Source of the DNA: Chondrosia reniformis
Lineage: Eukaryota > Porifera > Demospongiae > Chondrillida > Chondrillidae
Assembly (NCBI GenBank): GCA_947172415.1
Contig: OX359199.1
Location: 5,949,384 to 6,013,383 of the forward strand
Length of the DNA: 64,000 nucleotides
Reading direction: 5' to 3'
Positions 25,513 through 63,804 of the stretch are shown here, piece by piece. How positions within the stretch are numbered: position 1 is the stretch's first letter; each line of letters starts with the position of its first letter. The notes under the pieces are model-generated. The model had not been told where the DNA came from. It made no database searches and saw nothing but the letters and a program-made list of their open reading frames with translations. The translations under genes and the position numbers were made by a program.

Positions 25513-25698
25513 AACGGCTCGTTCACCTCTGAGGCCTTATCCTGACAGCCATATGCTATTCCTAACGTGTGAGATTCTAGCCGTCTCTCCTAATTCGTTA
25601 ATCGCGTGGTGAATTTGGTTCGTCTGAATGAACTCATCTAATATCTTGCTCATCACTTCTTGCTTTATGAATATCATTAAAACAACGCCGAGACAAAA

Positions 25699-26688
25699 AT
25701 GGCTGCCTCTAGTAAGAAACCCATTATTTGTCTTTATATGAAGTCCGATATACCGTCTGAACAAATGCAGTTACTTGAAGAGCATTTTATAGTCATTACC
25801 GAACAAGATAAAAATCTCTGTTCGAAGTACAAGAATGACGTAATCGCAATTGTACCATTTGCAGGATCTCTTGTTTCGGATGAAATTCTAGAGAAGTATC
25901 CAAATCTTCGTATCATTAGCAACAATTCAGTAGGTTATGACCATATTGATCTTCACGCTGCGGCTAAGAGAGGCATTCGAGTAGGGAATACACCTTTGGT
26001 TCTCAACGAAGCTACTGCTGAAATTGCAATCTCTTTAATATTGAGTACTGCTAGAAGAATAGTTGAAGGCGATAGGATTTGTAGATTGAATGATACTAAT
26101 CAGTTCTCACTAAACACGTTTCTAGGCACTGGAGTGAGCGGACAAACTTTAGGAATAGTCGGTATGGGAGGAATAGGTAGAGTACTGGCTAGAATGGCAC
26201 ATTGTGGATTCAATATGAAGATCCTGTATCACAATCGACATAGAGCAGCTGGAGATATTGAGCAATCCATTGGTGGAGCCGAGTACTACAAAGATGTCTA
26301 CGAAATGCTGCCTGTATGTGATTTTGTGGTACTGCTAGCTCCTTCTACTCCTGAGACATACAAAATGTTTGGAAAGAAGGAATTCTCTAGAATGAAACAA
26401 TCTGCTATTTTTGTGAACATATCACGTGGTACTCTGGTAGATCATGATGCATTAGTCAGTGCTCTGGAGGAAGGTGTCATCAAAGGTGCAGGATTAGATG
26501 TGACTGACCCAGAGCCACTTCCAAGGGACCACAAACTCCTTACTTTCCCAAATGTGGTACTCACACCCCATATTGGAAGTGCTACTGCACAGACTCGTTT
26601 AAAGATGATGCAAGTTGTTGTGGACAACATTGAAGCAGTTCTAAATGACAAACCAATGATGGCTGAAGTACAATTGCCAAAAGTATGA
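25699..26688 (+). CDS. GRHPR: Glyoxylate/hydroxypyruvate reductase-like 2-hydroxyacid dehydrogenase, copy 1
   Basis: Intronless 329-residue protein, the usual length of GRHPR. The NAD(P)-binding loop GMGGIG is at residues 155-160. The catalytic trio is intact: Arg243 in ISRGTLVD, Glu272 in DVTDPEPLP and His291 in TPHIGSAT. NNSVGYDHIDL and TTAE/ATAE substrate-side motifs are in place. The enzyme should reduce glyoxylate or hydroxypyruvate in cytosol, mitochondrion or peroxisome; substrate choice between GRHPR and a related D-2-hydroxyacid dehydrogenase is not certain. The start in AAAAATGGCTGCC is the same Met as in the near-identical copy at 41095. Convergent with IAH1. Confidence 0.93.
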   Translation: MAASSKKPIICLYMKSDIPSEQMQLLEEHFIVITEQDKNLCSKYKNDVIAIVPFAGSLVSDEILEKYPNLRIISNNSVGYDHIDLHAAAKRGIRVGNTPLVLNEATAEIAISLILSTARRIVEGDRICRLNDTNQFSLNTFLGTGVSGQTLGIVGMGGIGRVLARMAHCGFNMKILYHNRHRAAGDIEQSIGGAEYYKDVYEMLPVCDFVVLLAPSTPETYKMFGKKEFSRMKQSAIFVNISRGTLVDHDALVSALEEGVIKGAGLDVTDPEPLPRDHKLLTFPNVVLTPHIGSATAQTRLKMMQVVVDNIEAVLNDKPMMAEVQLPKV

Positions 26689-40770: not shown

Positions 40771-41094
40771 TTATTTTCCTTGTATTCCCCCTAGGCCTTT
40801 TGTTAAAATTACTTGGTTTGGCGAAAATCGACCTCAGACTAAGAACCATGTTCTCTTGAATACCACAATGTTTGTTATTCACAATGAACATGCTTCGTGT
40901 GGAGCGCATTCGGACTTAGGGCTAACTAATTCCTAGTTCGGAAACATTTATGACGATTTTTAACTTGTACGTGTCCGCATAAGTTCCCATGTTAGTCCAT
41001 TGAGGTGTTGATTGATAATATGTACGTGATAAGGCGACCAGATGCCATTCTCCTACTTAGAGAGCGCTTCCGTAGTGACGGTACCAAGACGAGA
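40771..41094. other. Upstream region of reductase copy 2
   Basis: 324 bases between the MITE arm and the reductase ATG. The reductase frame is open upstream to an in-frame ATG at 41020. The homologous Met (41095) is preferred because similarity to copy 1 begins only there. Confidence 0.5.
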
Positions 41095-42084
41095 ATGGCT
41101 GCCTCTAGTAAGAAACCCGTAGTTTGCCTTTATATGAAGCCCGATATACCGTCTGAACAAATGCAGTTACTTGAAGAGCATTATATAGTCATTACCGAAC
41201 AAGATAAAAATCTCTGTTCGAAGTACAAGAATGACGTAATCGCAATTGTACCATTTGCAGGATCTCTTGTTTCGGATGAAATTCTAGAGAAGTATCCAAA
41301 TCTTCGTATCATTAGCAACAATTCAGTAGGTTATGACCATATTGATCTTCACGCTGCGGCTAAGAGAGGCATTCGAGTAGGGAATACACCTTTGGTTTCC
41401 AACGAAACTACTGCTGAAATTGCAATCTCTTTAATATTGAGCACTGCTAGAAGAATAGTTGAAGGCGATAGGATTTGTAGATTGAATGATACTAATCAAT
41501 TCTCACTAAACACGTTTCTAGGTACTGGAGTGAGCGGCCAAACTTTAGGAATAGTCGGTATGGGAGGAATAGGTAGAGTGCTGGCTAGAATGGCACATTG
41601 TGGATTCAATATGAAGATCCTGTATCACAATCGACATAGAGTAGCTGAAGATATTGAGCAATCCATTGGTGGAGCTGAGTACTACAAAAATGTCTACGAA
41701 ATGCTGCCTATATGTGATTTTGTGGTACTGCTAGCTCCTTCTACTCCTGAGACATACAAAATGTTTGGAAAGAAAGAGTTCTCTAAAATGAAGCAATCTG
41801 CTATTTTTGTGAACGTATCACGTGGTACTCTGGTAGATCATGATGCATTAGTCAGTGCTCTGGAGGAAGGTGTCATCAAAGGTGCAGGATTAGATGTTAC
41901 TGACCCAGAGCCACTCCCAAGGTACCACAAACTCCTTACCTTCCCAAATGTGGTACTCACACCCCATATTGGAAGTGCTACTGCACAGACTCGTTTAAAG
42001 ATGATGCAAGTTGTTGTGGACAACATTGAAGCAGTTCTAAATGACAAACCAATGGTGGCTGAGGTACAACTGCCAAAAGTATGA
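41095..42084 (+). CDS. GRHPR: Glyoxylate/hydroxypyruvate reductase-like dehydrogenase, copy 2
   Basis: Intronless paralogue of the gene at 25699 with about a dozen amino-acid changes over 329 residues (for example VVCLYMKPD for IICLYMKSD, and RYHKLL for RDHKLL). The nucleotide-binding GMGGIG, the catalytic Arg in VSRGTLVD, the Glu in DPEPLP and the His in TPHIGS are all kept, so it should be active. The upstream flank differs from copy 1, while the downstream flank is shared in part. An N-terminal extension from ATG 41020 (MYVIRRPDAILLL) is possible but not conserved. It is convergent with TPR, about 590 bases from its stop. Confidence 0.9.
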   Translation: MAASSKKPVVCLYMKPDIPSEQMQLLEEHYIVITEQDKNLCSKYKNDVIAIVPFAGSLVSDEILEKYPNLRIISNNSVGYDHIDLHAAAKRGIRVGNTPLVSNETTAEIAISLILSTARRIVEGDRICRLNDTNQFSLNTFLGTGVSGQTLGIVGMGGIGRVLARMAHCGFNMKILYHNRHRVAEDIEQSIGGAEYYKNVYEMLPICDFVVLLAPSTPETYKMFGKKEFSKMKQSAIFVNVSRGTLVDHDALVSALEEGVIKGAGLDVTDPEPLPRYHKLLTFPNVVLTPHIGSATAQTRLKMMQVVVDNIEAVLNDKPMVAEVQLPKV

Positions 42085-57235: not shown

Positions 57236-57594
57236 TTTACTAAAGGAGGTGTTAAAATTGTGCTGATTGTTGCATAACGCTTATGACGTCACTATTTTGA
57301 AATATGATGTATTCCTAATTTGGTATTGGACGTGGGCAGATTATAAATGGCCGTTTACACCCCCGTGTTTTTTTCACTTACCGCGCGAGTTTCTGTGCCC
57401 GACGGGTGGTCTTTTGTTTATCACCAAATTTTCTAATGAGAATTATTGTATTCCGAAAGCCCGATGAAGGTAATTAGACTGTGTTTACGTACGAATATGT
57501 CTCGTGATGAATTGTAACTTGAAAGTTTTTATAAGTCTTTACAGATTTTATTTTTCTATTCTCACAGTATTGGACCATAGATCTATGATTGGAC
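57236..57594. promoter_or_regulatory. Bidirectional promoter between TPR and the RdRP gene
   Basis: Only 359 bases separate the two start codons. A perfect TGACGTCA (CRE-type) palindrome is at 57284-57291, about 50 bases upstream of the TPR ATG. On the RdRP side, a GAAG|GTAATT donor near 57469 and a CTCACAG acceptor at about 57567 suggest one 5'-UTR intron of about 100 bases. An out-of-frame ATG at 57585 opens a seven-codon uORF that overlaps the RdRP start. Confidence 0.6.
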
Positions 57595-60500
57595 ATGCCA
57601 TCAGTTAGAATAATTCTTTGTGGTGCTAGTTCAACTGGTAAGACTACCTTAGCAGATGATTGGTGTAACAGGAACCCCAGCTACGAGCGCATTCAAGAGG
57701 TGGCTCGTGATGTCATGGGGAGACTTAAAATTACTACTGATGATATGAAAATCTCTCTGAAATCAGATCCTCAAAAGAAACTGTTTTGTAACTTACAACT
57801 GGAAATTCTAAAAGAACAAAACATCCGCGAGAAAACAATGTCATTTGGCAAGTCTTATATATCAGATCGGGGTCCAGATCCTATAGTCTACGCATGCACC
57901 TTTGTGGGGCAGCAGGAGGCAGACAACCTCATACGCAGTCAGGATGGAGAGGAATGCATACAGAGATACAGACAGAGCTTGATGGTAGTGTTAGGTCCAC
58001 TCCCAGTAATCACAAATGATGGCTTTCGCTTGCTACCAGCTGATCGCAAAGAACAAGAAGATTTCAACCATAATTTATGTGCTTTTCTTAAGAAATACGA
58101 CATACCTTATATATACCTGGCAACTACCGACCACGATAAACGTTGCTTACAGTTGAGGGATGCTGTTAGAGGAATATTTTCCTTTAAATGCAATATTGAA
58201 CACAAGGATCCTATCAATGTTCTATACATTCCACATGATCCTCCACATGATCCTCCGCATGATCCTCCGCATGATCCTCCACATGATCCTCCACATGATC
58301 CTCCACATGAGACCAACAGCCAAGCAGTACACAGACATGTGGACAGAGGGGGAATTCCCTGTGTAAGATTTGAGCAGGGCAGAATCAAAACTAGTCTAAA
58401 GACATTCACACCAAACAAGACTAACCGCATGATCAGCAGATATGGCTCTGATGCATTCATTTCTGTTGAGTTTGACCAGAAAGTATCACCTAAAGATGTT
58501 TTTAAAATTGTTTCCCAATGTTTGTTCGTAAATGGTGAGAAGTTTAGTTTTTTAGGCTGCAGCTCAAGTGGTTTGAAGAATCGTACTTGTTACATGATGA
58601 ATGGCTCACATGGCAAACCTAATCAAGTACGCAGTGAATGTGGACACTTTTCAGAAATTAATTCTACCTCAAAGCGAATGAAGAGAATAGGGCAGCTCTT
58701 CTCTGAAGCAGTGCCTACTGGTATACACATTCCTGAAGCTGACATTCTGCGAACTGGAGATATTGAGCGTGGCACTCATATATTTACTGATGGATGTGGA
58801 GGAATAAGTAAGGGACTTGCCAAGTGTATTGCAGAGAAACTAGAGATACAACACCACTATGACCAGGAGGCATACACCCCCTCTGTGTTCCAAATCCGCC
58901 TCTTAGGGTGCAAAGGTGTTGTGATGGTGGATCCTGAACTGCAGAACAAGAAGCAGTTACTCGTGAGAGAGTCCATGGAGAAATTCAAACCAGGAAGTGA
59001 GCCACTAGATGAGCTCTGGGTTTGTGAGTTTTCCCGCCCTTACACCTTTGGCCATCTGAACCAGCAGTTCATAATGCTGCTATCTGGCAGAGGTGTTCCA
59101 GATGATGTACTACTAGAAAAGCAGCAAGCCTATTTTAATCAGCTTGAGAAGATGATGGTTGATCCCAAGGTAGCAATTCAATTGTTTCTATGGAACAACC
59201 AACCAGATATGGCAACTACCATCCTAAAGTCTGAAACCAGTTTTGATACTGATGTTCACATTAGAAAAGAGCTTTCCTGTCTCCGGGGAAACCTCATTAG
59301 AAAATTGGAAAAGCTGAGGATATTCATTGAAGAATCTCGCCATGTCTTTGGGGTGTGCGACTCCAAAGGAGAGCTACAGTATGGAGAATGCTTTTTCCGG
59401 CCAATTATTAATGGGAAACCAGTTAGTATTTCAGGAAATGTACTAATTGGAAAGAATCCGTGCTACCTTTTAGGGGACATGCGAGTCCTTAGGGCAGTCA
59501 GTGACCACAAAAGATGTAAGCATCTGGAACATCTTACTGACTGCATTGTGTTCCCCACTAAAGGTGATTGTCCTCACCCTACAGAGATCGCTGGCTCAGA
59601 TCTTGATGGGGATCAGTATTTTGTTTGTTGGGATCCATCTCTCATTCCCCCCCTCCCCCCTCCCAGCTCTTCCTACGAATACCCCTCCATGAGTGTGAAG
59701 CAGAACCATCAGGTCAGCGAAAGTGACATGATTAGGTACTTTTCCCTACAAAATGAACACCTTTCAATGGGAAAGATTGACAGCTACTTCAAATTTTGGG
59801 CTGAACTGAAGGGAGTGACCTGTGAGGAGTGTGAGTACCTTGGTAAGCTCTTTTCACACAGTGTGGATGCTTCTAAAACTGGAGCTAAGGTTGATATTCA
59901 CCCACGCTTCAAACCACCCAAAGCAGGTAGCCCTGTGAAGATAAGCCAAAAGAAGAAACAAGTGTGGGTTGCAATGAAGGAAGCAGCAGAGAGCAAGAAG
60001 AAGGAACTAGTGACCGATGTTGTTCAACAGAGCTTGCATGATCAAAATAAACAGGAAGTAGATGAAGGATTCATTTGGAACCTTTTCTTAGACGAAGATC
60101 GGCAACAAACACAAACCCTCTCAGAGTTCCAGCTCTTTAGATTTGTATTGAAATGGTGCCAAAACCACATCTCGTCTAATAATGAGATACTACAGAAAAT
60201 GATGGAGTTTTCAAAATACATTCACTTTGGGGAATTTACTCTTGAAGAACAGGTAGCAGCTATAAATGTGGGGATCCCTCAAACTGTAATTACCAATGAT
60301 CTGAACAAGTCAACACTGCTTCCACCGGAATTATTGAAACATTTCCTTTTAAACGAAGCCCAATATGAATGGAAATTTCACTTCAACAGATCTTCTGCAG
60401 ATTTTGACTGGAAGTATTTGCTCCGTTCCCTCCAGTGTTATCCTGAGTCACTAGTTGTGTTGCAGTTAGCAGATGAGGTTACTGTAGCCATCCATTTCCT

Positions 60501-63500
60501 TCAGAAGTTGCAGGATGGAGAGTGTCTTCCACTGGGAAACTCGGCCATTGCCTACTTTTCCTCTCAACACTTTGGGTTTTACCTCCGCCATGTTCTTGGC
60601 ATGCAATACAGCTACAACCTCACTGAGGAGATGCTTCAGATATACCGCAATAAAGACAAACGACAGACATTCATTTGGCTGTGCAATGAGGTTCCAGTTA
60701 AGAAAGATGATGAAAGAATGTTTGATCGTATAAGTGTTGATCTTACCAGTTTTAGCAAGAGAATCTTGGAGGGTAATTATAGACACCCCAAAGTGAACAA
60801 AACTCCTGTAAATGCCATTGAAGTGTTTGTCAAGAACTATTCCAGAGGTGATATGGCTTATTTTGATGTCTACATCACTGGGGCCCAAGATACCATTCCA
60901 GTTTCTCACAAGGTCGAGGAGGACATTGACCAGTTACCAGAGGAAGAAGGCAAAGATGATCATTCTGAAGATTTGAAGCAGCTAAGTCTGTTGGATCAAT
61001 CAAACACAAAATCTATTTTGAAAGCTCTAAAGGATGCAGCTTCTGAAGGCAACCTTATGCAGTTCAGGGAGTATCTAAGTCATATTCCCCAACAGGATGT
61101 AATTAAGGAAGAGTTAAGTTTAGCATTGTTGATTTTCCTGACCAAGTTAGTTGAGAAGAAGGCACATCAGGACCCCTCGGTAGAGTGTGACCTCATTAAT
61201 AGCATTCTGATACCTGTCTTGAATTTTTTCCAGGTCCCAAAAGACTGCATCTCTCTCCTTGACTTACTTGGTAGGTTACACCTTAATGCCACTCTGGAGC
61301 AGATATTTACTGTTCTCTTTGACAACTGCCAATTATCAGATTTTGAGGACTTTCTAAAGGTCATATTAAACTGGAAACAGCTATGTTTTATTCCTGCTGT
61401 AATTCTGTGTGATGCAATAACCAACTTCTACAGCCTCAGTCAGTTGCTGATTGGTAGTCATCGTGTAACAGGTGCTACAGAAAGTGATAGCATTCAAGTC
61501 TCTCTTCATAAAAATGCCTTTGAGGAAGGTGAAGTTCGAGTTCTGAAGTACATCAGTCATTTTACATATTTGTACTTTTTACATTACTTTGCTGAAAGTC
61601 AGACCTTGAGGGAGAAGGTAGATGGAGATTTGCACAGAGACACAGAACACAGTCTTGTGAAACTAAAGGCAAGATCATTCAACCAAGAGCTCTCAGATTC
61701 ACCTGATATTGCAATAGCTCAGTCTAAGTCTATTTTTCACTTTAAGGTAATCTTTCAAAGGGATTCTCGAGGTATATCCACTTCCAGATTCACGGAGGGA
61801 TCCTATGTTTTGATCAGCCTTATGAAGCCTGGCCTACCTCCATCATCTACTCCAGTGGCACTAGGAAAGGTAGAACAGATTCTGAAGGACCCAGCTCTTG
61901 TGACTGTTGCAGTATTCCAGCCAATACCAAACTGCCTGCAGAGGTCCATTCAGGAAAAAAGAGGACATTGGCAACTGAAGCTTATTGGCAACGTAACTGT
62001 TTATGTTAGGGTGGTGGAAACATTTCTCCAAATGTACCAAAATAGATCTCATCTAAATCCCTTGTTGTCATTACTAGTTAACTCTTTTGCTGAAGGACAA
62101 GAGGTGACGCCTTCTCAGAAAGCTGTTGCCAGTGTTATGCATCCCCTACATCCACAGCAGACTAGTGAAAGTTCTAAGGAGTCCTTAGCAACGGTCAAGA
62201 TAATGTCTCACTCTAAACAAAAGAGTACTCTTCCTTCTGATTATCAAGATGGAACACTTAATGCAAGTCAAAAGGAGGCTGTGCTAGCAGCTTTGGGTCA
62301 CACTAGCCCTGTAACTCTAATCCATGGTCCTCCTGGCACAGGTAAGACCACTGTCGCCTGTGAGATCATTCGGAGACGACTGCACCAAAAAGAAGGTCAA
62401 ATCCTTGTTACTGCTGAGACCAATTTATCAGTTGATAACTTATGCTCTCGTTTGCTGGAGCTAAGTGTAAGAGTAGTCCGAGTTGGTAGTGTGGAACAAG
62501 TTTCTCCTGCTATTAGAAACATTACATTGAAGCACCAGATTGAGGCAAAGAAAATGGAAAAGGGGTTAAGGCAGAGCAGCCATTTTAAAGACCAACAGTT
62601 GGCAGAAGATATTTTGAAGTCAGCTGAGGTCGTGGCCACTACGTGTTCTGGTGCTGGGGATTCATTTCTAAGGAATATTCACTTTCCCTTTATTGTAGTT
62701 GATGAAGCAACACAAGTTGTAGAACCTGTCCTCATGATACCAGTCATCCAGCTCCAGTGTGAAAAGCTCGTCTTAATTGGTGATCCCCAGCAGCTCTCTC
62801 CGACTTTAATCACAAATAGTTACCAGAAGTCATATTCATCTATTGTTCCAGATATTTCAATGCTTTCTACAACTCTATTCCACCGGTTGCAGACTGTATG
62901 CAAACCTGTATTTCTTAATGAGCAACATCGCATGTCTGAGAAATTGGCCTCCTTCCCTTCTTGTGAGTTTTACGAAGGAAGGCTGAAGACAGCAGTGCAT
63001 GAGAACCAAACTTTCCCCAGTACCCCTCCCTGGTGGCAATCCACTGAAACTGCAGCTCCTGCAGTATTTATTGATGTCCAAGCTAATGAGCTTAGGGAGG
63101 GCACTTCATGGAAGAATATCTTAGAGGCTGAAGTAGTCGAGTGTATTATCAAGCGTCTTGTTCAAAATGAAGTTAGTCCAACTGAGATAGCTGTACTCTG
63201 CCCTTACGTTGCCCAGGTCAGCTGCATCAGAACTAGACTAGCCAACAACTGTTCGAGGGTTGATGTACATACAATTGATAGCTTTCAAGGAAGGGAAAAG
63301 GGGTTTGTCATTTTCAGCTCTGTTCGATGCAACTTAAGAAGAGATATAGGGTTTCTTGATGATCGTTTGCGCATGAATGTTTTGTTGACAAGAGCTAAAT
63401 ATGGGATTATTGGTGTGGGAAGCAGGAGAACACTCTCTGAAGGGTCACAGCTTTGGAAGAAGTGGCTAGAGCATGCTCATGTGACCAAATTGGATAGTGT

Positions 63501-63804
63501 CGATCAGTTTGAAAGATATTGCCAAAAGCCTAAACAGAAATCTAAAAGAGATGATGAATTGAGAGGTCACTCTTTTGAACACTCTAACAGTCCGGTGGGA
63601 AGAGGAGGAGGTGTGGCAAGAGGAGGAGATATGGGAAGAGGAGGAGGTGTGGCAAGAGGAGGAGGTGTGGCAAGAGGAGGTGTGGCAAGAGGCAGAGGTG
63701 TGGCAAGAGGAGGAGGTGTGGCAAGAGACAACAGAGGAAGAGGTGGGAGAGGAGAAAGAAAGAGGGAAGCTGAGGGAAAGGAGAAAGGAGCTGGAAGGAG
63801 ATGA
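57595..63804 (+). CDS. P-loop NTPase - RNA-dependent RNA polymerase - SF1 helicase fusion
   Basis: Intronless 2069-codon ORF. TGA at 57586-57588 blocks any upstream extension, so ATG 57595 is the start. Residues 1-200 are a NadR/Ttd14-like P-loop domain (GASSTGKT at 10-17, then IQEVARDVM). A His-Asp-Pro-Pro tandem tract (213-238) is followed by a cellular RdRP of the QDE-1/EGO-1/RDR family: NRMISRYGSDAF, KRMKRIGQLFSE, DGCGGIS (399) and the catalytic DLDGD at 669-673 in IAGSDLDGDQYFVCWD. A helical linker and a beta-rich segment lead to an SF1 UPF1-like helicase: GPPGTGKT 1578-1585, DEAT 1703, IGDPQQLSP, NEQHRMS, DSFQGRE and RMNVLLTRAK. The end is an RG/RGG-rich tail (about 2000-2060). All catalytic motifs are intact. 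Small-RNA amplification or dsRNA synthesis is the likely role, with unwinding by the fused helicase; this is inferred. Confidence 0.93.
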   Translation: MPSVRIILCGASSTGKTTLADDWCNRNPSYERIQEVARDVMGRLKITTDDMKISLKSDPQKKLFCNLQLEILKEQNIREKTMSFGKSYISDRGPDPIVYACTFVGQQEADNLIRSQDGEECIQRYRQSLMVVLGPLPVITNDGFRLLPADRKEQEDFNHNLCAFLKKYDIPYIYLATTDHDKRCLQLRDAVRGIFSFKCNIEHKDPINVLYIPHDPPHDPPHDPPHDPPHDPPHDPPHETNSQAVHRHVDRGGIPCVRFEQGRIKTSLKTFTPNKTNRMISRYGSDAFISVEFDQKVSPKDVFKIVSQCLFVNGEKFSFLGCSSSGLKNRTCYMMNGSHGKPNQVRSECGHFSEINSTSKRMKRIGQLFSEAVPTGIHIPEADILRTGDIERGTHIFTDGCGGISKGLAKCIAEKLEIQHHYDQEAYTPSVFQIRLLGCKGVVMVDPELQNKKQLLVRESMEKFKPGSEPLDELWVCEFSRPYTFGHLNQQFIMLLSGRGVPDDVLLEKQQAYFNQLEKMMVDPKVAIQLFLWNNQPDMATTILKSETSFDTDVHIRKELSCLRGNLIRKLEKLRIFIEESRHVFGVCDSKGELQYGECFFRPIINGKPVSISGNVLIGKNPCYLLGDMRVLRAVSDHKRCKHLEHLTDCIVFPTKGDCPHPTEIAGSDLDGDQYFVCWDPSLIPPLPPPSSSYEYPSMSVKQNHQVSESDMIRYFSLQNEHLSMGKIDSYFKFWAELKGVTCEECEYLGKLFSHSVDASKTGAKVDIHPRFKPPKAGSPVKISQKKKQVWVAMKEAAESKKKELVTDVVQQSLHDQNKQEVDEGFIWNLFLDEDRQQTQTLSEFQLFRFVLKWCQNHISSNNEILQKMMEFSKYIHFGEFTLEEQVAAINVGIPQTVITNDLNKSTLLPPELLKHFLLNEAQYEWKFHFNRSSADFDWKYLLRSLQCYPESLVVLQLADEVTVAIHFLQKLQDGECLPLGNSAIAYFSSQHFGFYLRHVLGMQYSYNLTEEMLQIYRNKDKRQTFIWLCNEVPVKKDDERMFDRISVDLTSFSKRILEGNYRHPKVNKTPVNAIEVFVKNYSRGDMAYFDVYITGAQDTIPVSHKVEEDIDQLPEEEGKDDHSEDLKQLSLLDQSNTKSILKALKDAASEGNLMQFREYLSHIPQQDVIKEELSLALLIFLTKLVEKKAHQDPSVECDLINSILIPVLNFFQVPKDCISLLDLLGRLHLNATLEQIFTVLFDNCQLSDFEDFLKVILNWKQLCFIPAVILCDAITNFYSLSQLLIGSHRVTGATESDSIQVSLHKNAFEEGEVRVLKYISHFTYLYFLHYFAESQTLREKVDGDLHRDTEHSLVKLKARSFNQELSDSPDIAIAQSKSIFHFKVIFQRDSRGISTSRFTEGSYVLISLMKPGLPPSSTPVALGKVEQILKDPALVTVAVFQPIPNCLQRSIQEKRGHWQLKLIGNVTVYVRVVETFLQMYQNRSHLNPLLSLLVNSFAEGQEVTPSQKAVASVMHPLHPQQTSESSKESLATVKIMSHSKQKSTLPSDYQDGTLNASQKEAVLAALGHTSPVTLIHGPPGTGKTTVACEIIRRRLHQKEGQILVTAETNLSVDNLCSRLLELSVRVVRVGSVEQVSPAIRNITLKHQIEAKKMEKGLRQSSHFKDQQLAEDILKSAEVVATTCSGAGDSFLRNIHFPFIVVDEATQVVEPVLMIPVIQLQCEKLVLIGDPQQLSPTLITNSYQKSYSSIVPDISMLSTTLFHRLQTVCKPVFLNEQHRMSEKLASFPSCEFYEGRLKTAVHENQTFPSTPPWWQSTETAAPAVFIDVQANELREGTSWKNILEAEVVECIIKRLVQNEVSPTEIAVLCPYVAQVSCIRTRLANNCSRVDVHTIDSFQGREKGFVIFSSVRCNLRRDIGFLDDRLRMNVLLTRAKYGIIGVGSRRTLSEGSQLWKKWLEHAHVTKLDSVDQFERYCQKPKQKSKRDDELRGHSFEHSNSPVGRGGGVARGGDMGRGGGVARGGGVARGGVARGRGVARGGGVARDNRGRGGRGERKREAEGKEKGAGRR

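Follow-up and report, generated by a model that had tools for sequence, protein, structure and literature searches.

What might an RNA-dependent RNA polymerase (RdRP) do in an animal when it is joined, in one polypeptide, to a nucleotide-kinase-type domain and a superfamily 1 (SF1) helicase? We describe here a gene of this kind from the sponge Chondrosia reniformis, which lies in a 64,000-nucleotide stretch of contig OX359199.1 (C11, positions 5949384-6013383; the whole stretch is referred to as the window) in an assembly of 117.4 Mb and 15 contigs. The role of animal RdRPs beyond nematodes is an open question, and the excerpted text of an amphioxus study terms them an evolutionary enigma (PMC6396948; this and the other papers cited are represented by parts of their text). 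The sponge Amphimedon is said to have no RdRP (PMC6211395), one is reported from the sponge Halichondria (PMC6085071), and bdelloid rotifers have a mean of 38.9 copies, with functions yet to be established (PMC7943196). The gene is single-copy and intact, and we think it somewhat probable that its product is an RdRP of plant-RDR2-like type to which are joined an SF1 helicase working in cis, a kinase for nucleos(t)ides or RNA ends at the N-terminus, and a TLDc-like domain.

An intact frame with three domains

The stop-free frame on the + strand runs from 57589 to 63804, and its earliest ATG, at 57595, gives a protein of 2069 residues whose coding part is one frame without apparent introns. The gene sits 6.0 Mb inside a contig of 7.6 Mb, and its coding DNA is found as one full genome copy, with the remaining 19 of 20 matches falling on the minisatellite of its arginine-glycine (RG) tail. 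An original prediction, made from the letters of the window, had placed three domains on one chain with the motifs GASSTGKT, DLDGD, GPPGTGKT and DEAT intact, and both Pfam and motif reading bear this out (Table 1). The N-terminal domain, which it had called NadR-like, matches AAA_28 (PF13521; E 2.6e-16, 60.7 bits against a curated cut-off of 27, profile positions 1-164 of 164 covered), the polymerase matches PF05183 (E 5.6e-120, 402.2 bits against a cut-off of 23.8, profile positions 5-539 of 582), and the C-terminal SF1 helicase matches AAA_11 (E 4.7e-46) and AAA_12 (E 4.3e-49, residues 1757-1944) in a search with the whole protein. The prediction had staked itself on calls of PF05183 and of an SF1 helicase, and both are found.

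Table 1. Positions in the window of the gene, its domains and motifs, and nearby features
Feature	Residues	Positions	Strand	Basis
Candidate 5' untranslated region (UTR) intron, GT...AG, 98 bp		57470..57567	+	by eye
Whole coding frame, 2069 aa and stop	1-2069	57595..63804	+	open reading frame (ORF) reading; one full DNA copy in the genome
P-loop nucleos(t)ide-kinase-type domain (AAA_28 / NadR ribosylnicotinamide-kinase fold)	5-183	57607..58143	+	Pfam
Kinase Walker A, GASSTGKT	from 10	57622..57645	+	motif reading
ISDRG, containing the kinase DR motif		57859..57873	+	alignment and motif reading
NDGFR, kinase lid motif		58015..58029	+	alignment and motif reading
12-bp tandem repeat coding PHDP units in the linker		58230..58310	+	sequence repeats
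Cellular RdRP domain	265-776	58387..59922	+	PF05183; plant RdRP structures top by sequence and profile
DLDGD metal-binding motif (GSDLDGD from residue 667)	669-673	59599..59613	+	motif reading
TLDc-like fold	about 898-1081	60286..60837	+	predicted structure only
Helical region of unknown kind	about 1123-1290	60961..61464	+	predicted structure
Possible 1B-like beta region before RecA1	about 1380-1480	61732..62034	+	bounds by eye; weak
UPF1-like SF1 helicase core	about 1553-1960	62251..63474	+	Pfam; PDB matches by sequence and profile
RG-rich tail encoded by minisatellite		63595..63743	+	repeat and motif reading

The arrangement had been thought unfamiliar, and it proves to be widespread. We pooled 145 distinct relatives from three protein searches (the best 120 of 153, of 613 and of 575 matches), which with the window protein make 146 sequences; the relatives were limited by length, leaving out shorter RdRPs, domain counts in them are from precomputed Pfam annotation, and all counts describe these listed sets only. 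All three domains (PF13521, PF05183, and PF13086 and/or PF13087) are present in 76 of the 145, and RdRP with SF1 helicase in 129. The original prediction had suggested looking for the arrangement elsewhere. Among the matches listed, all three domains are carried by proteins of the sponges Ephydatia, Dysidea and Oopsacas, the cnidarians Actinostola and Hydractinia, the bivalves Mercenaria and Mya, the rotifer Rotaria socialis (PF13086 only) and the diatom Amphora coffeaeformis, and proteins with RdRP and SF1 helicase but no called AAA_28 come from Dreissena, three species of Mytilus and the diatom Seminavis. The highest-ranking named relatives are these same three sponges, which indirectly supports an animal origin of the gene, and the best-scoring relative is just 49% identical across the first 800 residues. 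Two relatives named as transcript-derived ORFs (P0109 and P0110) carry all three domains, and therefore a single mRNA can carry them all. By the E-values and the 145 listed relatives, the three-domain architecture is confirmed at the sequence level as real and far above chance.

Domain trees (FastTree) were compared for the 125 of 146 sequences in which RdRP and helicase are both well aligned. At a support of at least 0.95, the helicase tree reproduces 61 of 62 splits in the RdRP tree (at 0.9, 68 of 75), and because of this congruence RdRP and helicase seem to have been fused long ago and passed on as a unit; the RdRP and middle-region trees have 57 of 62 splits in common at 0.95, with zero conflicts. 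An overall FastTree phylogeny of 70 representatives of the 146 was midpoint-rooted, with no outgroup and with weak branches, so its placement of the diatoms is tentative and horizontal transfer is possible. It is very improbable that the gene is a decaying or artefactual one, whether a chimeric assembly, a pseudogene or a recent private fusion. Its single frame without apparent introns could be taken as a sign of such an origin, but all motifs are present in a frame of full length, the locus is deep within its contig, and the three domains recur together in the listed relatives; with the congruence of the domain trees added, we rejected all three versions.

The polymerase and the helicase

This gene is the sole RdRP match in the genome (PF05183, one match in 117 Mb), and DxDGD is present at the aligned position in 144 of the 146 sequences. 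Among solved structures the profile matches RNA-dependent RNA polymerase 2 best (E about 2e-112 for 7eu0 and 7roz), together with 7w84 and 7w82, likewise named RNA-dependent RNA polymerase; we take all four to be plant proteins. QDE-1 is a far weaker match (5.6e-25). The domain appears to be of a plant-RDR2-like class, as read from the nearest solved structures rather than from formal placement in an RDR clade; the window protein is like plant RNA-dependent RNA polymerase 2 and its relatives in this domain, and is unlike them in adding a kinase and a helicase.

In the helicase (Walker A GPPGTGKT at residue 1578, Walker B DEAT at 1703), a profile built from 53 relatives and the middle fragment of the window protein scores highest with UPF1 (433 bits), SEN1 (344) and a '5'-3' RNA helicase-like protein' (8ftm, 336), and lower with SMUBP-2 (302), ZNFX1 (285) and DNA2 (272); the top NCBIfam match is the IGHMBP2 family, with an E of 2e-87 yet below its cut-off. 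UPF1, a factor in nonsense-mediated mRNA decay, has an N-terminal zinc-binding CH domain, and UPF1 chains (800 residues) are matched from chain position 290-291 onward only, so that no CH domain is indicated. By these sequence comparisons the helicase is UPF1/IGHMBP2-like and not UPF1 itself. AAA_12 has 53 matches in the genome, the best being this gene, and neither PF25396 nor an RZ-type zinc finger is among 25 of the 38 families listed for the window protein. Both are carried by a long open AAA_12 helicase frame on contig C12 (L028), where PF25396 is the ZNFX1 domain, from which we conclude that ZNFX1 is encoded by another gene of this genome. A further long ZNFX1-type helicase frame on C12 (L026) shows an RZ zinc finger in its scanned portion.

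The final 109 residues, after residue 1960, contain 12 RG and seven RGG motifs, as expected of the RG-rich tail that had been predicted, and part of the tail is encoded by an 18-bp minisatellite at 63595-63727. At least five RG motifs within the last 150 residues are found in 32 of the 146 sequences. Many RdRP-SF1 proteins lacking the kinase domain (P0067-P0090 and others) also have RG-rich tails.

The N-terminal kinase domain

The nearest fold of the N-terminal domain is that of NadR, followed by thymidylate and deoxynucleoside kinases, and a PHROG 'thymidylate kinase' family matches residues 3-192 (E 3.6e-8). NadR itself (TIGR01526) is covered at positions 166-324 of 325 only, below its cut-off, and the nicotinamide mononucleotide (NMN) adenylyltransferase part is thus not matched. 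The domain shares its fold with NadR, its Walker A with NadR and with phage AAA_28 kinases (phrog_2107; L030 and L031), and a DGxR lid with NadR and L031; it differs from NadR in being without the NMN adenylyltransferase part and in having DR in place of the DT of the aligned NadR (6gye). A DR motif is found in thymidylate kinases.

Sequences in which Walker A, DR motif and lid arginine are all intact number 62 of the 146 and range from sponges to a diatom; in the others this signature is incomplete or absent. We also aligned nine relatives with the window kinase (P0048 and P0108 were excluded), and since these were chosen for an intact signature, the invariance of its residues there is by choice. 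PF13521 has a single match in the genome (30 of 62 candidates scored). Two contig scans, one with patterns on RdRP columns and one with a Walker A pattern, confirmed no prokaryotic kinase relatives, and viral contigs scanned with the RdRP-column patterns yielded no confirmed relatives; a second viral-contig scan yielded 24 loci, of which 23 match residues 5-40 only. In one viral contig, an AAA_28 kinase (L031, 4992-5510) directly adjoins a QueF (deazaguanine) gene, a neighborhood that makes a nucleotide-modification setting possible for such kinases. The string PHDPPHD in the linker that follows the kinase is found in the window protein and in none of the 145 relatives, and the repeat is likely a recent expansion.

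The properties of these domains bear on whether the protein could serve RNA surveillance or repair outside RNA interference (RNAi), with stalled, damaged or foreign RNA as the target of helicase and RdRP, and 5'-OH ends as that of a mending kinase. A helicase nearest to UPF1 and a kinase fold with intact catalytic residues both fit, and a non-RNAi role has been proposed for animal RdRPs, as the amphioxus excerpt has it (PMC6396948). However, the N-terminal part of UPF1 is unmatched and the top kinase matches are small-molecule kinases, and we regard this as rather unlikely.

The stretch between RdRP and helicase

No Pfam family matches the stretch ahead of the helicase (about residues 776-1548), and the original prediction had missed what the predicted structure suggests there, namely a TLDc-like fold. 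PF07534 (TLD) gives no match at E up to 10 when searched against this region (about residues 898-1081) alone, and a genome-wide PF07534 search at E up to 10 does not match this gene. Likewise, TLDc is absent from the first 25 of the 92 Pfam families listed for 25 relatives, a PDB search by sequence shows no TLDc for the middle region, and there is no detectable sequence similarity to the TLDc domains of OXR2 and NCOA7. The region in the model appears to have the TLDc fold, and since the fold comes from structure prediction alone and a PF07534 sequence match is absent, we name it TLDc-like and do not file it as a TLDc member. Plant RDR structures are not among the matches listed for the middle model, which does not exclude them.

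The helical region that follows has no clear structural match. For the possible 1B-like region, the profile matches SMUBP-2 chain residues 76 to 618 in one stretch, and the predicted model shows strands up to its end at residue 1440. The UPF1 match was rejected as evidence for this region, as it begins too late in the chain.

Small-RNA genes in the genome

The genome contains a Dicer_dimer match together with two of five RNase III matches on contig C14, and ten Piwi-domain exon matches on three contigs. The protein might be an RNAi amplifier, as the original prediction had suggested, using Argonaute-targeted transcripts to make double-stranded RNA or secondary small RNAs and feeding the Dicer and Argonaute proteins of this genome, and the amphioxus paper, in the part cited, gives synthesis of small interfering RNAs or their precursors as the sole known function of cellular RdRPs (PMC6396948). 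The same excerpt, however, carries the speculation that amphioxus RdRPs act outside RNAi, in the sponge Halichondria one RdRP was detected, but no abundant viral small RNAs, by the available text (PMC6085071), and a product-stripping helicase would favor single-stranded products. We see RNAi amplification as possible, if on the unlikely side. A putative small-RNA or antiviral role is neither required nor excluded by the published data, as excerpted (PMC6396948, PMC6085071).

Neighboring features

A short upstream ORF in another frame (57585-57608, +) overlaps the large frame's start codon, as seen by eye, and a divergent gene may start about 360 bp upstream of that frame (from about 57236 downwards, -; by eye, unconfirmed). 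Two single-frame genes of D-2-hydroxyacid dehydrogenase type (25681-26688 and 40996-42084, +) lie about 15 kb apart; their translations look closely alike, and the pair is a local duplication. The Pfam scan covered the first of them.

Discussion

The domain composition suggests that the protein most likely copies RNA using its own helicase in cis. The RdRP would copy an RNA template, the helicase would either clear that template of proteins and structure or trail the new strand and strip it for re-copying, and the RG tail may hold the RNA. For the kinase, the DR motif and NadR-type lid suggest a nucleoside, a nucleotide or an RNA 5' end as the probable substrate. SF1 helicases of the UPF1-like group move 5' to 3'. 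On the template this direction opposes that of the polymerase and on the new strand the two coincide, so that an output of double-stranded RNA and a stripping of product or recycling of template are equally likely. The fused helicase may be a cis equivalent of Hrr1 with Rdp1 in fission yeast and of ZNFX-1 with EGO-1 in worms, and since it is nearer to UPF1, the comparison is a functional one and not one of orthology.

Several known systems invite comparison. RDRC consists of Rdp1, the helicase Hrr1 and Cid12 (PMC2965749), and co-immunoprecipitation with EGO-1 is reported for ZNFX-1, of which Hrr1 is called an orthologue (PMC9276528), in the excerpted text of each paper. These resemble the window protein in partnering an RdRP with an SF1 helicase, although they do so as separate proteins, and the genome described here has a ZNFX1 of its own. 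RdRPs fused to a DEAD-box helicase, which the original prediction had attributed to Dictyostelium, do occur there but not there alone, since oomycetes, Hydra and Nematostella are also named in the available part of PMC4791657; their DEAD-box helicase is N-terminal, whereas the window protein has a C-terminal SF1 helicase and its N-terminus is AAA_28 rather than DEAD-box plus helicase-C. The amphioxus RdRP BL02069, in print since 2019, is likewise an animal RdRP with AAA_12, which is the C-lobe of such SF1 helicases; compared by description and not by sequence, it differs in that the excerpt mentions neither a kinase nor a TLDc-like domain (PMC6396948). The RdRP, helicase and kinase folds and the pairing of RdRP with AAA_12 are thus already known; what is new is the intact kinase signature in 62 of these sequences and the TLDc-like fold seen by structure prediction. 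In the open-access literature searched we found no description of the kinase-RdRP-helicase order.

Some observations weigh against the reading that we favor. The kinase domain is absent by alignment in 44 of the 146 sequences and its Walker A is broken in 23, for which reason it looks dispensable in many lineages as judged from these alignments, although some of these cases are truncated gene models; the glass sponge Oopsacas is without the kinase DR motif. The RdRP and helicase trees conflict in one strong split at 0.95 and in four at 0.9, and the helicase is nearer by profile to UPF1 than to ZNFX1. Convincing RdRP activity was not seen in amphioxus small-RNA data, according to the excerpt (PMC6396948).

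We also consider, as a quite unlikely idea, that proteins of this kind are an ancient and mostly overlooked class of RNA-copying machine, perhaps older than the animals, which unites a kinase, an RdRP, a TLDc-like dock and an SF1 helicase in one chain and whose work lies outside classical RNAi. In this picture the TLDc-like part would bring RNA copying to a compartment, whether one that bears V-ATPase or another, with the kinase readying ends or nucleotides and the helicase freeing the template for renewed use. If true, this would give a testable reason why many animals retain RdRP genes with an unproven role in RNAi. With three domains that recur in animals and a diatom, one protein allows polymerization, unwinding and phosphorylation to be tested jointly, and the predicted TLDc-like domain may be an unexpected lead on where the protein acts.

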